Below are positions 13,543-45,401 of a stretch of DNA of 64,000 bases, piece by piece. Origin of the DNA: Acidobacteriota bacterium (GTDB lineage Bacteria > Acidobacteriota > Vicinamibacteria > Vicinamibacterales > UBA2999). Positions within the stretch are counted from its first letter, which is position 1, and each line of letters starts with the position of its first letter. Both the position numbers and the translations under genes were made by a program. Location of the stretch: the NCBI GenBank assembly GCA_030697165.1, contig JAUYQQ010000016.1, positions 1-64,000 of the forward strand. The letters run 5' to 3'. The notes beneath the pieces were generated by a model. The model was given only the letters and a program-made list of their open reading frames with translations, did no database searches and had not been told where the DNA came from.

Positions 13543-13657
13543 GGCCACAGAGGACACAGAGGACACCGAGTCAATTCTTTCTAAATGCCAGTCGGCGCGT
13601 TCGACGCTCGATCGCATTTCGAGAGTTTGCTCTGAGTCCTCTGTGTCCTCTGTGGCC
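13543..13657. repeat. 115-bp palindromic element (family A, gene-less)
   Basis: A perfect 22-bp inverted repeat (13543-13564 and 13636-13657) built from CAGAGGACA/CCTCTGTGT units flanks a 71-nt loop. Just inside the left arm it has ACCGAGTCAATTCTTT, closely matched beside the left arm of the GxxExxY unit at 42898. This is the size and form of a MITE or REP-type element. It separates the amidohydrolase and VOC genes. Confidence 0.85.
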
Positions 13658-17277: not shown

Positions 17278-19089
17278 ATGGATCTGCATATCGTCGGCGC
17301 CGAAGCCACCGAAGCCGAGCGCGCGGCGGTCGATCGCCTCCTGGGCCCCCCGGCAACCGGATGGCACGGCGCGGCGCGGGACATTGGCCGCGACGGGCGC
17401 ACGGCCATTGGCGGACGGCAGGTCACGGGTGACCGCGACCTGCTGCTGCCCGCCTTTCACGCCGTCCAGGACGCCATCGGCTGGATCAGCCACGGCGCCC
17501 TCAACTACGTCTGCACCCGGCTGTCGGTTCCGCCCGCCGAGGCCTGGGGCGTCGTCACCTTCTATCACCTGTTGGCCACGGAGCCGCGCCCGGTGGCCGT
17601 CGCCCATGTGTGCGACGACATCGCCTGCCGCTTGAAAGGCGCCGACCGGATGTGCCGGGAGCTGGAGTCGCGGCTCGGGCACGCGGTGCACCGCTCGCCG
17701 TGTCTTGGGCAATGCGATCACGGGTCCGCCGCGCTCATTACTCGGGCCGGGAGCGAGCCGGAGCGGTTTGTGCTCGCGCCGGTCACCGCGGAGGAGGTCG
17801 TCCGGGCGGTTGAGATCCCGAGGGTTCCGAAGGTGACTACCGTGCCGGCTGGTGCGGGTACCCGAATCCTTCGGCGCATGATCGTGGCCGATGTCACCAG
17901 GCTCGACATCTATCGCCAGCACGGCGGTTACGCGGCGCTGACGAAGGCGATCGCCATGGGTCCCGCGGCCGTCATCGCCGAAGTCTCGGCGGCGAAGTTA
18001 CTGGGGCGCGGTGGCGCGGCGTTTCCGACCGGCCGCAAGTGGGAGGCGGTGGCCCGCGAGCCGGCGACACCGCACTATGTGGTCTGCAACGCGGACGAGT
18101 CCGAACCCGGCACGTTCAAGGATCGCGTGTTGATGGAGCAGGACCCCTTGGCCGTGATTGAGGCGATGACGATTTGTGGACTCGCGACCGGCTCCGAGCA
18201 CGGGTTCATCTACATTCGCGGCGAGTACCCGGAGGCCGAGAGCGCCATTGGCGCGGCGATCGAACAGGCACGGGCGGCCGGCTTGCTGGGGCCGAGCGTG
18301 GCAGGCTCGGGTCACGCGTTCGAGATCGAGATTCGCCGTGGTGGCGGCGCGTACATCTGTGGTGAAGAAACGTCGCTGTTCAACTCCCTCGAGGGCAAGC
18401 GCGGGGAACCGCGGTCGAAGCCGCCGTTTCCGGCGCAGATCGGCGTGTTTGGGAAGCCGACCGTGGTGAACAACGTCGAGACGCTCGTGAACGTGCTCGA
18501 CATCCTGGTCGAAGGCGGCACGGCGTGGGCGCGAACCGGCACCGCGGGCTCGACTGGCACGCGGCTGTTCTGCCTGTCTGGCCACGTCGCGAAGCCAGGC
18601 CTGTACGAGATTGAATGCGGCCAGACGCTGCGGCATGCGATCGACCTGGCCGGCGGTGTCCCGGGCGGCCGGTCGCTGCAGGCCGTGCTGCTTGGCGGCG
18701 CCGCCGGCACGTTCGTCGGCCCGGATGCGTTGGACATGCCGCTGTCATTCGAAGGCGCGCGTGCCGCCAATGCCACCCTGGGATCGGGCGTGATCATGGT
18801 GTTCGACGACACCGCCGATCTGTTGGACACGCTGGCCCGCATCGCGCAGTTCTTCCGCGACGAATCCTGCGGCCAATGCGTCCCGTGTCGCGTCGGCACG
18901 GTGCGGCAGGAAGAACTTCTGCGCGGCCGGGATCAGGGATCAGGGATCGGGGATCAGGGCACGGTGCTCCTGAGTGAGCTGGGTCAGGCGATGCGAGACG
19001 CGTCGATCTGCGGACTGGGCCAGACGGCAGCGTCGGCCATTGAATCGGCATTTGCAAACCTGCCCTCTTTGAGAAGGTCCGGGTCATGA
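17278..19089 (+). CDS. NuoE-NuoF fusion, NADH-side subunit of formate dehydrogenase
   Basis: 603 residues. Residues 1-175 are NuoE-like with a thioredoxin-fold [2Fe-2S] site (CDDIAC then SPCLGQC). From about 190 the protein is NuoF-like: RGGAAFPTGRKW (FMN/NADH loop), NADESEPGTFKDR, the IRGEYPEA segment, GAYICGEETSL, and the [4Fe-4S] cysteines ESCGQCVPC plus SICGLG. It takes electrons from the formate site to NAD+. The NuoE-NuoF linker (PRVPKVTTVP) resembles repeat family F, and residues about 551-561 are encoded by heptamer repeat D between the last cluster cysteines. The start lies 2 bp after the fdhA stop and the end overlaps the next gene by 4 nt. Confidence 0.92.
   Translation: MDLHIVGAEATEAERAAVDRLLGPPATGWHGAARDIGRDGRTAIGGRQVTGDRDLLLPAFHAVQDAIGWISHGALNYVCTRLSVPPAEAWGVVTFYHLLATEPRPVAVAHVCDDIACRLKGADRMCRELESRLGHAVHRSPCLGQCDHGSAALITRAGSEPERFVLAPVTAEEVVRAVEIPRVPKVTTVPAGAGTRILRRMIVADVTRLDIYRQHGGYAALTKAIAMGPAAVIAEVSAAKLLGRGGAAFPTGRKWEAVAREPATPHYVVCNADESEPGTFKDRVLMEQDPLAVIEAMTICGLATGSEHGFIYIRGEYPEAESAIGAAIEQARAAGLLGPSVAGSGHAFEIEIRRGGGAYICGEETSLFNSLEGKRGEPRSKPPFPAQIGVFGKPTVVNNVETLVNVLDILVEGGTAWARTGTAGSTGTRLFCLSGHVAKPGLYEIECGQTLRHAIDLAGGVPGGRSLQAVLLGGAAGTFVGPDALDMPLSFEGARAANATLGSGVIMVFDDTADLLDTLARIAQFFRDESCGQCVPCRVGTVRQEELLRGRDQGSGIGDQGTVLLSELGQAMRDASICGLGQTAASAIESAFANLPSLRRSGS
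17818..17840. repeat. Family F-like repeat in the NuoE-NuoF linker
   Basis: This 23-nt stretch matches the GGGTGCCTAAGGTGCC-type array at 21779-21860 in about 18 of 23 positions and is translated PRVPKVTT. The similarity suggests that the fusion joint derives from a former intergenic repeat. Short and imperfect, so tentative. Confidence 0.45.
18930..18959. repeat. In-frame ATCAGGG heptamer array (family D)
   Basis: Four ATC(A/G)GGG units, the reverse complement of the pssA-end array, are read in frame as RDQGSGIGDQG. They lie between the CxxCxxC and the fourth cysteine of the NuoF-like [4Fe-4S] site, where the family normally has a variable loop. Confidence 0.85.
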
Positions 19090-20006
19090 CCAACGACGAG
19101 ATCTCATTCCGCTTGCCGCCACCGGCAGCGGTCATTCCCGCTCCGCCGGCTGAACCCGCGCCGGTGATGGTGCCGTTGACCATCGACGGGCGAGCGGTCG
19201 AGGTGCCGGCCGGCGCGACCCTGATCGAGGCATGCAACACGCTCGACATCCACATTCCGACGCTGTGCTACCTCGAGACGCTCACCCCCGTAAACGCCTG
19301 CCGCGTCTGCGTCGTCGAAGTCGAAGGCGCGCGCGTGCTGGCGCCGGCGTGCTCGCGCAAGGTCGAGGCCGGCATGGTCGTCAAGACCCGGTCGCCTCGG
19401 GTTGACCTCTCGCGCAAGGTGGTCTTGGAGTTATTGGGATCTTCTGTCGATTTGAGTACCGCACCCGGACTAAGCGAGATGATAATGGAGTACGGAGCCC
19501 GTCCAGAGAGGTTTCAAGAGAGTCTTGGCTCTGTGTCCTCTGTGTCCTCTGTGGCCCAGCCGGTGAAGATCGACAACGACCTCTACGTGCGGGACTACGG
19601 CAAGTGCGTCCTCTGCTACAAGTGTGTTGAAGCGTGCGGCACCGACGCGCAGCACACCTTCGCCATTGCCGTCGCCGGTCGCGGCTTTAGCGCCCATATC
19701 TCGACTGAGCTCGACGTGCCGCTGCCGGATTCGGCGTGTGTCTATTGCGGCAACTGCATTGCGGTGTGCCCGACCGGCGCGTTGATGGCGACGCCGGAGT
19801 TCGAACTGCGGAAGGCAGGGGAGTGGCGGCCCGAGACCCAGGCCGTGACGGATACGATCTGTCCGTATTGCGGTGTCGGCTGCACGCTGACCGTGCACGT
19901 GCAGGATCAGCAAATCGTGAAGGTGACGTCGCCGTTCGACAACGACGTCACCCGTGGGAATCTGTGCGTGAAGGGACGCTTCGGCTTCGAGTACGTGAAC
20001 AAATAG
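19086..20006 (+). CDS. Detached N-terminal Fe-S subunit of formate dehydrogenase
   Basis: 306 residues. After a Pro-rich lead, residues 35-120 form a [2Fe-2S] domain (LCYLETLTPVNACRVC, then APAC). Next come two [4Fe-4S] sites (CVLCYKCVEAC and CVYCGNCIAVC), and finally, from about 255, the formate dehydrogenase domain CPYCGVGC...NLCVKGRFGFEYVNK. In other NAD-linked enzymes this whole block is the N-terminus of FdhA. Here it stops exactly where the catalytic subunit of gene 15305-17275 begins, so the two must associate; the conserved Lys of LCVKG must reach the cofactor across a subunit interface. Residues about 148-158 (SVSSVSSV) are encoded by repeat family A. The start overlaps the NuoEF stop (ATGA). 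Confidence 0.9.
   Translation: MTNDEISFRLPPPAAVIPAPPAEPAPVMVPLTIDGRAVEVPAGATLIEACNTLDIHIPTLCYLETLTPVNACRVCVVEVEGARVLAPACSRKVEAGMVVKTRSPRVDLSRKVVLELLGSSVDLSTAPGLSEMIMEYGARPERFQESLGSVSSVSSVAQPVKIDNDLYVRDYGKCVLCYKCVEACGTDAQHTFAIAVAGRGFSAHISTELDVPLPDSACVYCGNCIAVCPTGALMATPEFELRKAGEWRPETQAVTDTICPYCGVGCTLTVHVQDQQIVKVTSPFDNDVTRGNLCVKGRFGFEYVNK
19529..19556. repeat. In-frame family A right arm
   Basis: CTCTGTGTCC/TCTGTGTCC units ending in CTCTGTGGCC, identical in type to the right arms at 13636-13657 and 43450-43478, are read as SVSSVSSVA. No matching left arm is visible nearby. The repeat sits between the [2Fe-2S] and [4Fe-4S] domains. Confidence 0.85.
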
Positions 20007-42864: not shown

Positions 42865-42990
42865 GCAGGGGAGTTAGCCGCAGAGGACACCGAGGGCACC
42901 GAGCAATACTTTGGGTGCCCGTGCTTTAAGCTACTGCCTGGACGGCTAGAGCCAGAAGCGTGAAACCGAAACGGCCGCAGCCACGCCTCG

Positions 42991-43392
42991 ATGATGGCGG
43001 CGACTCCGCCTGGGCGCGAAGGGTCCACCGTCAACATCACGCCGTTGGGAGGCATCGGCTGCGCCATTGAAGTGCATCGGCACATGGGCGCAGGATTGCT
43101 CGAGAAGCCCTACACGCTGGCGATGTGCATCGAGTTGGCCTCCCAGGGCATCGGCTTCGAGCGCGAACGGTTGGTGCCCCTGACTTACAAGGGCATTCGT
43201 GTCGGCGAGTACCGGCCGGACCTCATTGTTGAAGGACGGGTGGTCGTCGAGGTGAAGAGCGTCCTCCACCTCGAGCCTGTCTTCACCGCGCAGATGCTGA
43301 CCTACCTGCGGATCACGAACCTTCGCACAGGCCTGATACTCAACTTCAACCGCCCGGTTCTGCGCGAGGGGATCAAGCGGTTCGTGCTGTAG
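42991..43392 (+). CDS. GxxExxY protein (PD-(D/E)xK-like fold)
   Basis: 133 residues. IGCAIEVHRHMGAGLLEKPY carries the GxxExxY motif, followed by YKGIRVGEYRPDLIVEGRVVVEVKS with the Asp and ExK of a PD-(D/E)xK nuclease-like core, and GLILNFNRPVLREGIKRFVL, the family's C-terminal signature. Biochemical role unknown. From memory, the family occurs as many paralogues per genome in several phyla. It is the only gene inside the inverted-repeat unit. Confidence 0.88.
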   Translation: MMAATPPGREGSTVNITPLGGIGCAIEVHRHMGAGLLEKPYTLAMCIELASQGIGFERERLVPLTYKGIRVGEYRPDLIVEGRVVVEVKSVLHLEPVFTAQMLTYLRITNLRTGLILNFNRPVLREGIKRFVL

Positions 43393-43409
43393 CCGCCCGC
43401 CCCCAAAAG

Positions 43410-43433
43410 AAGTGCCCCGTGACAGCGGCACTT
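43410..43433 (+). terminator. Hairpin after the GxxExxY gene
   Basis: AAGTGCC (43410-43416) pairs with GGCACTT (43427-43433), followed by GTATTT. A short rho-independent-like terminator 18 bp after the stop. Confidence 0.6.
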
Positions 43434-43478
43434 GTATTTGAATGAATTGCCTCTGTGTCCTCTGTGTCCTCTGTGGCC

Positions 43479-45401
43479 CTATGGTATTCGGATCTGTGTC
43501 CTGCCGGCGCCAAGGGGCGACTGCCTCGTGTAGAAGTGCGCGTAGATCTTGCCGGCCACCAGGTCCTCCCGGTCCCGTCCTCGCAGCATCAACGTCCCCG
43601 AGCCGGTGACCTGATTCGGCACGAGCAGGTGGGCGATGATCGGGCCCGGCTTGTCGCCATCGCTGCGCTGCAGGGTTAATCCCACGACTCGATCGGTGCC
43701 GATGGCCGGGGTCGTGGCGTCGTATCGCAGTGCGCCCGTCGTGCGGTCGTAGGTGAACTTGACGGCGCTACCGCCAACCGTCGCCTCGACGCTCACCGGC
43801 AGCGGCGCGGCGCCGTTGACGAGCGGCGGCGTGCTGAACGGCGCTCGCCGCGGCTTGGTGGCCTGCTCCCAGCCATAAGCCAGTTTCAACAGGGCGGCCT
43901 CCTGGAATGCGCCGCCGAGTAGCTCCAGCCCGATCGGCAGTCCGTCAGTCGTGAAGCCCGCCGGCATCGTGATGGCGGGCAGGCCGGTGGTCGCGCTCAA
44001 CTGGCAGTTCGAGCCGCTTTGCGCCTCGCCGATCATCGCCGGCTTGCGGCGGAGCGTGGGGTAGGCGAGCACATCGATGCGCTGTTCCTCGAGGGTGGCC
44101 AGCACGGCGGCGCGCAACGCCCGACGCTTCACGAAAGCCTGGCGATAGCGCTCGGTCTCCTTTCTCTCCGGGGAGTTGCGCAGGCGGAACGTGGCGTCGA
44201 GCTGATCGTGATGCAGGCCGCGCTCGATGATCTCACCGAGCGACTTGACCGGCGCATTCGGCTGCTTCGCCAGGTAAGCGGCCAGGTCGAACTTGAACTC
44301 GTCGGCAATCACGCTGCTGTCGCGCAACAGATCGTCCAGGCCCGGCACCGTGATGTCCACGACTTCGGCGCCCTGCGCTTTCATGGCGTCCAGCGCCTTG
44401 CGAACCAGGTTGCCGACTTCGTCATCTTCGGGCGCAGTTCCGAACAATCCGCGCAGCACGCCGATGCGCGCGCCCTTCAAGCCACCCGGCGTGAGCGCGT
44501 CGCGGTAGGACTTGGGGATGTGTGTGGCGCCTTCGGCGGTGATGGGGTCGGTGGGATCGGGGCCGACCGTGGCGTCGAGCATGATGGCGAGGTCGGTGAC
44601 CGTCCGTGCCAGCGGCCCGGCAATATCCTGGGTCGATGACAGCGGCATCACGCCGGTGCGGCTGGACAGGCCGTGCGTGCCGCGCAAGCCCACCATGTTC
44701 TGGTTCGCGGCCGGGATGCGGATCGAGCCGCACGTGTCGCTGCCCATGCCCGCGGCGGCGAGGCTCGCGCCGATGGCCGCGCCGGTGCCGCCGCTCGAGC
44801 CGCCGGGTACGCGCATCAGGTCGTACGGGTTCCGCGTCTGGTTGGTCAGCGACGAGATGTTGGTAATCCCCGCCGCCAACTCGTGCATCGTCGTCTTGCC
44901 GAGGATCACCGCACCGGCCTCGCGCAGCTTGCGCACCTGGAAGGCGTCGGCCGCCGGCTGCATGGTGGCGAGCCCCAGGTTGCCGCCCGACGTCGGCATA
45001 TCGGCGGTGTCGTAGTTGTCCTTGATCAGGACAGGGATGCCGTGGAGGGGACCGCGCGCGCCCTTCTCGGCTCGCTCGCGATCCAGCGCATCGGCGTCTT
45101 CGCGCGCGCGGGGGTTGAGCATGACGATGGTGTTCAGTCGCGGGCCCGCCTGGTCGTAGGCCTGGATGCGTGCGAGATAGGAATCCACCAACCCTCGAGC
45201 GGTGACCGTGCCGGCGGTTTGCGCGGCCTGCAGGTCGCCGATCGATTGCTCGTGGACCTCGTAGAAGTTCAGCACCGGCGCCGGCTGAGGACGCGCCGGC
45301 GGCTTGCGTTGCGCCACGGCTGTGGCGCCATGACCGGCGAGCATCAACACGGTTACGAGCAGACCGAGGCGCGGCGATCGAAAGCGGGTTTCAAAACGCA
45401 T
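43479..45401 (-). CDS. Exported amidase with C-terminal CHRD-like domain
   Basis: 640 residues. A signal peptide (to about TAVAQ) precedes an amidase-signature domain with the Ser-cisSer-Lys triad: Lys in VLIKDN, PGGSSGGTGAA and the nucleophile in GSDTCGSIRIP. Residues about 535-640 (VEATVGGSAVKFTYDRTTGALRY to KIYAHFYTRQSP) look like a CHRD domain, rare on amidases. The ATG at 45401 sits at the signal peptide; a GTG at 45428 is an alternative. The stop touches the family A right arm. Confidence 0.87.
   Translation of the reverse strand: MRFETRFRSPRLGLLVTVLMLAGHGATAVAQRKPPARPQPAPVLNFYEVHEQSIGDLQAAQTAGTVTARGLVDSYLARIQAYDQAGPRLNTIVMLNPRAREDADALDRERAEKGARGPLHGIPVLIKDNYDTADMPTSGGNLGLATMQPAADAFQVRKLREAGAVILGKTTMHELAAGITNISSLTNQTRNPYDLMRVPGGSSGGTGAAIGASLAAAGMGSDTCGSIRIPAANQNMVGLRGTHGLSSRTGVMPLSSTQDIAGPLARTVTDLAIMLDATVGPDPTDPITAEGATHIPKSYRDALTPGGLKGARIGVLRGLFGTAPEDDEVGNLVRKALDAMKAQGAEVVDITVPGLDDLLRDSSVIADEFKFDLAAYLAKQPNAPVKSLGEIIERGLHHDQLDATFRLRNSPERKETERYRQAFVKRRALRAAVLATLEEQRIDVLAYPTLRRKPAMIGEAQSGSNCQLSATTGLPAITMPAGFTTDGLPIGLELLGGAFQEAALLKLAYGWEQATKPRRAPFSTPPLVNGAAPLPVSVEATVGGSAVKFTYDRTTGALRYDATTPAIGTDRVVGLTLQRSDGDKPGPIIAHLLVPNQVTGSGTLMLRGRDREDLVAGKIYAHFYTRQSPLGAGRTQIRIP

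Follow-up and report, generated by a model that had tools for sequence, protein, structure and literature searches.

A small gene for a GxxExxY protein, enclosed by inverted arms of short tandem repeats, points to a type of small mobile DNA, so far unrecognised, around GxxExxY genes. The gene lies in a window of 64,000 nucleotides (the whole stretch of DNA analysed here) from an Acidobacteriota genome, a 5.39-Mb draft in 23 contigs, and we lean, with moderate confidence, towards reading gene and arms together as a minimal mobile REPIN-like element, with arms that are acted on by the PD-(D/E)XK nuclease it encodes. Our observations comprise the architecture of the element, its generality, the co-variation of arms with protein clades, gene-less copies and deletion derivatives, presence and absence at orthologous sites, and purifying selection on the gene; mobility of the GxxExxY element is strongly suggested.

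The element is a 601-bp unit (42877-43477) made up of a left arm, the GxxExxY (PDDEXK_3) gene and a right arm, and in the ORF list of the window it is flanked by two convergent ORFs and contains no transposase ORF (Table 1). A preliminary description of this DNA had proposed a gene within imperfect inverted arms at 42876-43478; the enclosure stands, with arms of 27 nt that are 85% complementary and consist of three 9-bp units each (by eye, CACAGAGGA), but these coordinates are one base too wide at each end. The string CTCTGTGTC occurs six times in the window against 0.41 expected, a count reached in 0/100 shuffles, and the 16-mer arm with at most one mismatch has 29 sites genome-wide compared with 0 for its reversed control, several of them being inverted pairs approximately 70-100 bp apart. 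The gene-less copy at 13543-13657, previously credited with perfect 22-bp arms, does form a single hairpin with 22 uninterrupted pairs (-74 kcal/mol, z -12.4), and its orthologue in a genome of the same genus (G005) is shorter and decayed. It shares 51 bp (88%) with the gene-bearing element, as had been noticed, though not at the left arm: the reverse complement of its left end aligns to the right end of the element (43430-43479). A single arm at 19529-19555 falls inside an ORF (19086-20006) similar to formate dehydrogenase alpha (N-terminal part), at a place where solved relatives are variable too.

Table 1. Features of the GxxExxY element and related repeats, in window coordinates
Feature	Position	Strand	Description
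Left arm	42877..42903	+	Three 9-bp units (GCCGCAGAGGACACCGAGGGCACCGAG); 85% complementary to right arm over 27 nt
Right arm	43451..43477	+	Three units (CTCTGTGTCCTCTGTGTCCTCTGTGGC); recurs in same-genus genomes
GxxExxY / PDDEXK_3 nuclease gene (putative)	42991..43392	+	133 aa; start codon uncertain; profile matches, conserved residues, PD-(D/E)XK-like fold in the structure model
Short inverted repeat between gene and right arm	43405..43438		12-nt arms, 83% complementary; earlier read as putative terminator
Gene-less hairpin copy	13543..13657		22 uninterrupted pairs, z -12.4; among 25 aligned family members
Single arm without inverted partner	19529..19555	+	In frame inside ORF 19086-20006

The window protein belongs to the GxxExxY / PDDEXK_3 family, scoring above the curated cut-offs of both TIGR04256 GxxExxY (E 1.7e-37, 128.3 bits against a cut-off of 35) and PF13366 (E 4.7e-36, 124.1 bits against 22). 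Residues G35, Y41, D77, E87, K89, Q101 and F119 do not vary across 81 sequences, and since D77, E87 and K89 are among them, the nuclease-like D...ExK core that had been read from the translation is indeed present. In an AlphaFold2 model based on the 81-sequence alignment (pLDDT 89.5 on average and 94-98 in the blocks that follow from residue 21), the predicted fold matched lambda exonuclease (Foldseek E 6.5e-4), Cas4 SSO0001 (4ic1; Z 10.0 over 98 residues, 3.2 A) and Hjc (Z 7.4 over 85 residues, 3.1 A, where a Z under 8 may mean a common arrangement only). The Pfam family Cas_Cas4 gave E 0.26 with the window protein, which is under that family's cut-off, no PDB sequence matched the GxxExxY profile at E up to 1, and no chain named TnsA appeared among the 50 structure matches listed, which does not amount to its exclusion. 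Conservation of D77, E87 and K89, together with the predicted fold, only suggests nuclease activity.

Repeat arms are general around GxxExxY genes. We assembled 117 loci, comprising all 8 PF13366 genes of the source genome, 29 loci from a phylum sample and 80 named loci, the best 80 of 468, which are biased to the own-genome clade because the queries were three own-genome proteins; six loci with less than 200 bp on one side were dropped, leaving 111. The arm score is the best inverted match between the 500 bp upstream and the 500 bp downstream of the gene, with a cut-off of >30, and the controls were placements with identical geometry, displaced by 1.7 kb within the same loci. The median score was 44 at GxxExxY loci and 21 at shifted controls, and arms exceeded the cut-off at 88/111 GxxExxY loci, from many phyla, compared with 2/137 controls. 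PIN genes in the same genomes exceeded it in 2/30 cases, compared with 24/29 for GxxExxY in the phylum sample (Fisher 1.3e-9). The enrichment around GxxExxY genes that the preliminary description had proposed to test is thus upheld, and the arms are not common to all gene ends. Among the 23 loci that miss the cut-off, some have unit arms by eye (e.g. L119, L127, L050, L039). Five of the eight source-genome loci are above it (L010-L013, L016), with units that differ by eye (CACGAAGGA in L011, ACGCGAAG in L010, GATTACGCC in L013 and CACGGAAA in L016), and two of the remaining three (L014, L015) lie near contig starts. Besides their short units, L013 and L014 contain long inverted repeats, perhaps a further repeat family; at L013 the long repeat adjoins the unit arms and the pair around the gene scores 172. 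Relatives of the CGCAGATT type occur in Asticcacaulis biprosthecium C19 (L102) and Methylophaga sp. OBS4 (L087), GxxExxY matches were present in 8 plasmid records, and one query against phages returned none.

A typical arm consists of about three units of 8-10 bp each. The right arm starts close to the stop codon (offset -0.5 bp at the median, -32 and +41 at the quartiles), and the left arm lies fully within the open frame of the gene in 43/88 elements; an in-frame start codon is found inside the left arm in 21 and upstream of it in 19. The earlier suggestion that arms encode TEDTE-like N-termini holds for other loci, for example TTEDTAGTQR in L115, but the left arm of the window element does not lie fully within the frame of its gene.

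Arm units differ between protein clades, and CTCTGTGTC is one among many. The similarity of arms tracks protein identity (Mantel rho 0.563, n=88; maximum of 1000 permutations 0.258): where AAM or AAL stands near the protein start, the arms are of the C-R-C-n-GAT type in 58/65 cases, and where neither does, they are of the GAG type in 15/23. Arms agree at 0.78 within an element compared with 0.35 between elements, or 0.49 if the proteins are at least 50% identical. Such co-variation fits a cognate pair of nuclease and repeat, though it does not prove recognition because co-inheritance of arm and gene would yield such a correlation too.

Copies of the arms accompany the gene across genomes. PF13366 was found in 50/119 genomes of the phylum sample, and CRCAGAKKNCRCAGAKK had 1302 sites in these 50 compared with 25 in the other 69, its reversed control giving 7 and 11 sites, respectively; a second arm pattern had 169 sites in genomes with PF13366 and 1 in those without. 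Two genomes inflate the site totals, one in which the shared sequence extends beyond the arms (G025, 548 sites) and one with tandem arrays (G008, 283 sites), and the per-genome counts are independent of both: at least three sites of either pattern occurred in 33/50 GxxExxY genomes and in 1/69 without the gene (p 1e-15, a nominal value given the relatedness of the genomes). The one genome that departs from this is G049, in which 7 arm sites occur and PF13366 has no match. In G067, whose one gene has CACGAAG-type arm units, 41 sites of the second pattern and 0 of the first were found. Beside a GxxExxY gene of G008 (L188:14160-14520), the arm unit is embedded in a tandem array of approximately 58-bp repeats.

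Related genomes carry different states at orthologous sites. The window site is empty in same-genus G005, an instance of the empty sites that the preliminary description had proposed looking for: no more than 26 bp separate the matched flanks, and both the arm and the gene are missing. In G006 the left arm and an orthologous gene are present as far as the contig end, and in G003 (L021) another palindrome of approximately 60 bp (CCGTAGAGGCGGGACTTCAGTCCCGCC...) replaces the element; therefore different repeats may use the same spacer. We followed one spacer through a further genus (g42), in 42 of the 47 genomes searched, the other five having no fetched locus with both flanks. Twenty of the 42 sites are empty (approximately 38 bp). 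A further 11 contain gene-less hairpins, whose three unit types occur in 4, 3 and 4 genomes, and the last 11 contain GxxExxY elements, 4 of one type and 7 of another; among the 7, L285 is broken, its gene being reduced to the 5' part. Several lineages of the element have therefore occupied this spacer. On the tree of the flanks, empty and filled states require 8 changes compared with a shuffled mean of 14.2 (as low in 1/500), and six states require 18 changes compared with 20.7 (as low in 10/200). The whole stop-to-start interval differs between states and interspecies exchange is therefore inseparable from repeated insertion at this spacer, so that recombination between species may explain the pattern equally well. 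Orthologous elements are common to other species pairs at 79-88% flank identity, and hence the elements can be long-lived.

The occurrence of empty, hairpin and gene states at one g42 spacer in different genomes would also suit a homing-type selfish gene, for which older hairpins were spread by another machine and the GxxExxY protein cuts a hairpin so that its gene enters by recombination. The joint change of element and neighbouring spacer is recombination-like, and two genomes are identical over a 522-base stretch with the element and show 9 differences in the 200 bases to its left, but another 200-base flank window of the same pair is identical as well. We consider this explanation unlikely, since hairpins would not be expected to be scarce in genomes without the gene (1/69) if another machine spread them, and since one spacer is occupied by elements that differ in both arm unit and protein.

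Purifying selection acts on the GxxExxY genes at the g42 spacer (dN/dS 0.09-0.12 and 0.11-0.24; most dS values in these comparisons are close to 1 or higher). Taken with retention at 79-88% flank identity, this is the pattern of a useful host gene and speaks against mobility. It would agree with hairpins that act at the RNA level, as RNase III-type processing sites or terminators around a host gene for, e.g., repair or defence, and that spread incidentally. The hairpins are predicted to be very stable as RNA: all 25 aligned gene-less copies from the genus of the window fold more stably than shuffled sequences (z -3.4 to -13.8, mean -8.3), and their inner parts have z below -1 in 17/25. An RNAalifold analysis of 19 copies gave no support from covariation (3 two-sided pairs against a shuffled mean of 1.4 and maximum of 4), and the one Rfam match at E up to 1 was far below its cut-off. 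Intervening sequences (IVS) of rRNA, which have inverted ends too, are excised by RNase III according to PMC4990558. A role confined to RNA is nevertheless quite improbable, as it leaves unexplained the gene-less copies that track the gene, the clade-specific units and the empty or differently filled orthologous sites.

The resemblance of the hairpins to REPINs raises the further alternative that the arms belong to the REP/REPIN repeats and owe their movement to RAYT or some other Y1 transposase, with GxxExxY as a passenger. PF01797, which covers Y1 transposases including RAYT, is also present in 37/50 GxxExxY genomes, and within these, arm sites occur in 27/37 Y1 carriers and 6/13 others (p 0.08). 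Across the sample, PF01797 is a weak predictor of three or more sites (28/79 genomes with it, 6/40 without). We regard this alternative as highly improbable because six GxxExxY genomes with no PF01797 match have 6 to 119 arm sites each and three or more sites occur in only 1/42 genomes with Y1 and without GxxExxY.

The aligned gene-less copies measure 99-116 bp as cut, one end having been lost to end-finding in 4/25. Their intact ends are GCC...GGC, and TTA precedes the left end in 9/25. Target duplications, which the preliminary description had proposed looking for, did not emerge: in the 25 copies no direct repeat of 2-9 bp outside the ends stood clearly above mismatched pairs, in a set of genomes that held no near-identical pair of empty and filled sites. 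Copies within single genomes are of several kinds. In G085, five of nine fetched loci contain related elements (87-94% identity) that have only the element, or the element and short flanks, in common; L249 has lost internal sequence but retains the two arms, and L250 has no left arm. G103 has 34 scored PF13366 matches, and 20 of its 30 fetched loci share one 198-bp internal gene deletion. We rejected these copies as proof of transposition since they belong to a larger repeated unit (L167-L174) that also contains a transposase-like ORF, presumably IS5-like, and this unit therefore probably carried the GxxExxY element; no close copy of the unit empty of the element was found among the matches listed (77 genomes). 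In G194, the gene lies within four copies of a 1.87-kb repeat. The least credible explanation is a DDE transposon of the classical type together with its MITEs, or passive carriage by insertion sequences, for although the G103 unit would fit it, the 25 gene-less copies have no target duplication, the window element has no transposase ORF and the G085 copies share little beyond the element itself.

The pattern of autonomous and non-autonomous forms discerned in the preliminary description is borne out by the empty site, the gene-less family and the internal-deletion derivative with both arms. That description had likened the element to RAYT/REPIN pairs or to transposons with MITEs; the first likeness is the closer, and the second less apt, because no target-site duplication was found. 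Weighing against a mobile reading are the multi-copy cases of G103 and G194, which lie in larger repeats, the 23/111 loci under the cut-off, the arm sites without a gene in G049 and the greater number of arms in PF05635 genomes.

For the minimal REPIN-like element that we favour, the likely substrate of the GxxExxY protein would be its own clade-specific arms. The nuclease may cut or process the arm hairpin formed in single-stranded or extruded DNA. Both the element and the gene-less hairpins that share its arms would then be copied to other, mostly intergenic sites in a process that leaves no target duplication, as has been proposed for RAYT/REPIN pairs, whose nuclease is unrelated. We infer from the genomic patterns that the protein binds and cuts its own arms and that cutting drives movement, and the nature of the intermediate is inferred likewise. 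If the nuclease itself drives movement, it represents a new enzyme type for transposition, an unrelated nuclease type joins the REPIN-like systems, and an origin is provided for many short intergenic repeats and repeat-encoded N-termini. GxxExxY proteins are widespread and named only after their motif, and their own arms offer a concrete, testable substrate. We found no description of repeat-armed GxxExxY elements in the literature searched, outside which most subscription papers fall, so that an earlier account is possible. In that literature, GxxExxY occurred only in a virus genome and a reverse-transcriptase classification, PF13366 was merely listed, PDDEXK_3 was absent and the arm strings had only unrelated occurrences.

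The gene for the four-helix 23S_rRNA_IVP protein (PF05635), found in 62/119 genomes, offers a parallel. Inverted arms above the same cut-off occur at 27/30 of its loci (L298-L327) compared with 0/58 shifted controls, with units that by eye are mostly 7-8 bp (GCCAGTA, GGGATCA, GGGACCT and others), and PF05635 predicts three or more GxxExxY-type arm sites less well than GxxExxY does (28/62 genomes with it, 6/57 without). Because PF05635 genes have arms besides those of GxxExxY genes, there seem to be two or more unrelated kinds of gene in repeat-armed one-gene elements, and one of these kinds has long counted as selfish. This second repeat-armed gene is perhaps related to cyanobacterial heptamer repeats (STRR). 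It is perhaps also related to the rRNA IVS, which would connect the parallel to an old puzzle. In PMC4990558, the 23S rRNA IVS is described as approximately 430 nt with 28-bp inverted ends and one tiny ORF (S23p), regarded as selfish, with three tandem heptamers upstream of that ORF, and PMC4679880 reports TAACTGA heptamers in Beggiatoaceae. Rather more tentative than our reading of the single element is a wider one, that a single stand-alone PD-(D/E)XK nuclease, able to read short-repeat arrays, drives a class of transposable elements in which each protein clade has its own repeat 'address', that this class forms a wide superfamily with IVP genes and the 23S rRNA IVS, and that it accounts for many short tandem repeats of bacterial genomes that have so far lacked an explanation.

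Among known systems, Cas4, lambda exonuclease and Hjc are the nearest solved folds to the predicted GxxExxY structure; unlike them, GxxExxY genes are free-standing between repeat arms. Homing endonuclease genes are small nuclease genes that one genome has at a given site and a related genome lacks there, as is the case for GxxExxY genes, but here different element families, each with its own arms, share one site. MITEs of DDE transposons are short gene-less copies with inverted ends beside gene-bearing copies, and the GxxExxY family likewise has both forms and an internal-deletion derivative. It differs in that its arms are tandem short units and the window element has no DDE gene, and we do not class it with MITEs because its 25 gene-less copies show no target-site duplication. 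The inverted ends, the one tiny ORF and the short tandem repeats beside it recall the 23S rRNA IVS (PMC4990558), where the protein is a four-helix bundle and known copies lie in 23S rRNA; the window element has protein-coding surroundings and a GxxExxY gene instead of S23p. REPIN/RAYT (TnpA-REP) systems (PMC3116915) are the closest: both have intergenic two-arm hairpins in many copies, with a dedicated small enzyme gene flanked by them or nearby, and GxxExxY arm pairs form multi-copy hairpins whose intergenic position was not counted systematically. We do not class the element as REPIN/RAYT because the defining HUH enzyme is absent from it and not required: arm-rich genomes without PF01797 indicate that Y1 enzymes are neither needed nor good predictors here, and in place of an HUH/Y1 transposase the arms, each of about three 8-10-bp units, enclose a predicted PD-(D/E)XK nuclease.
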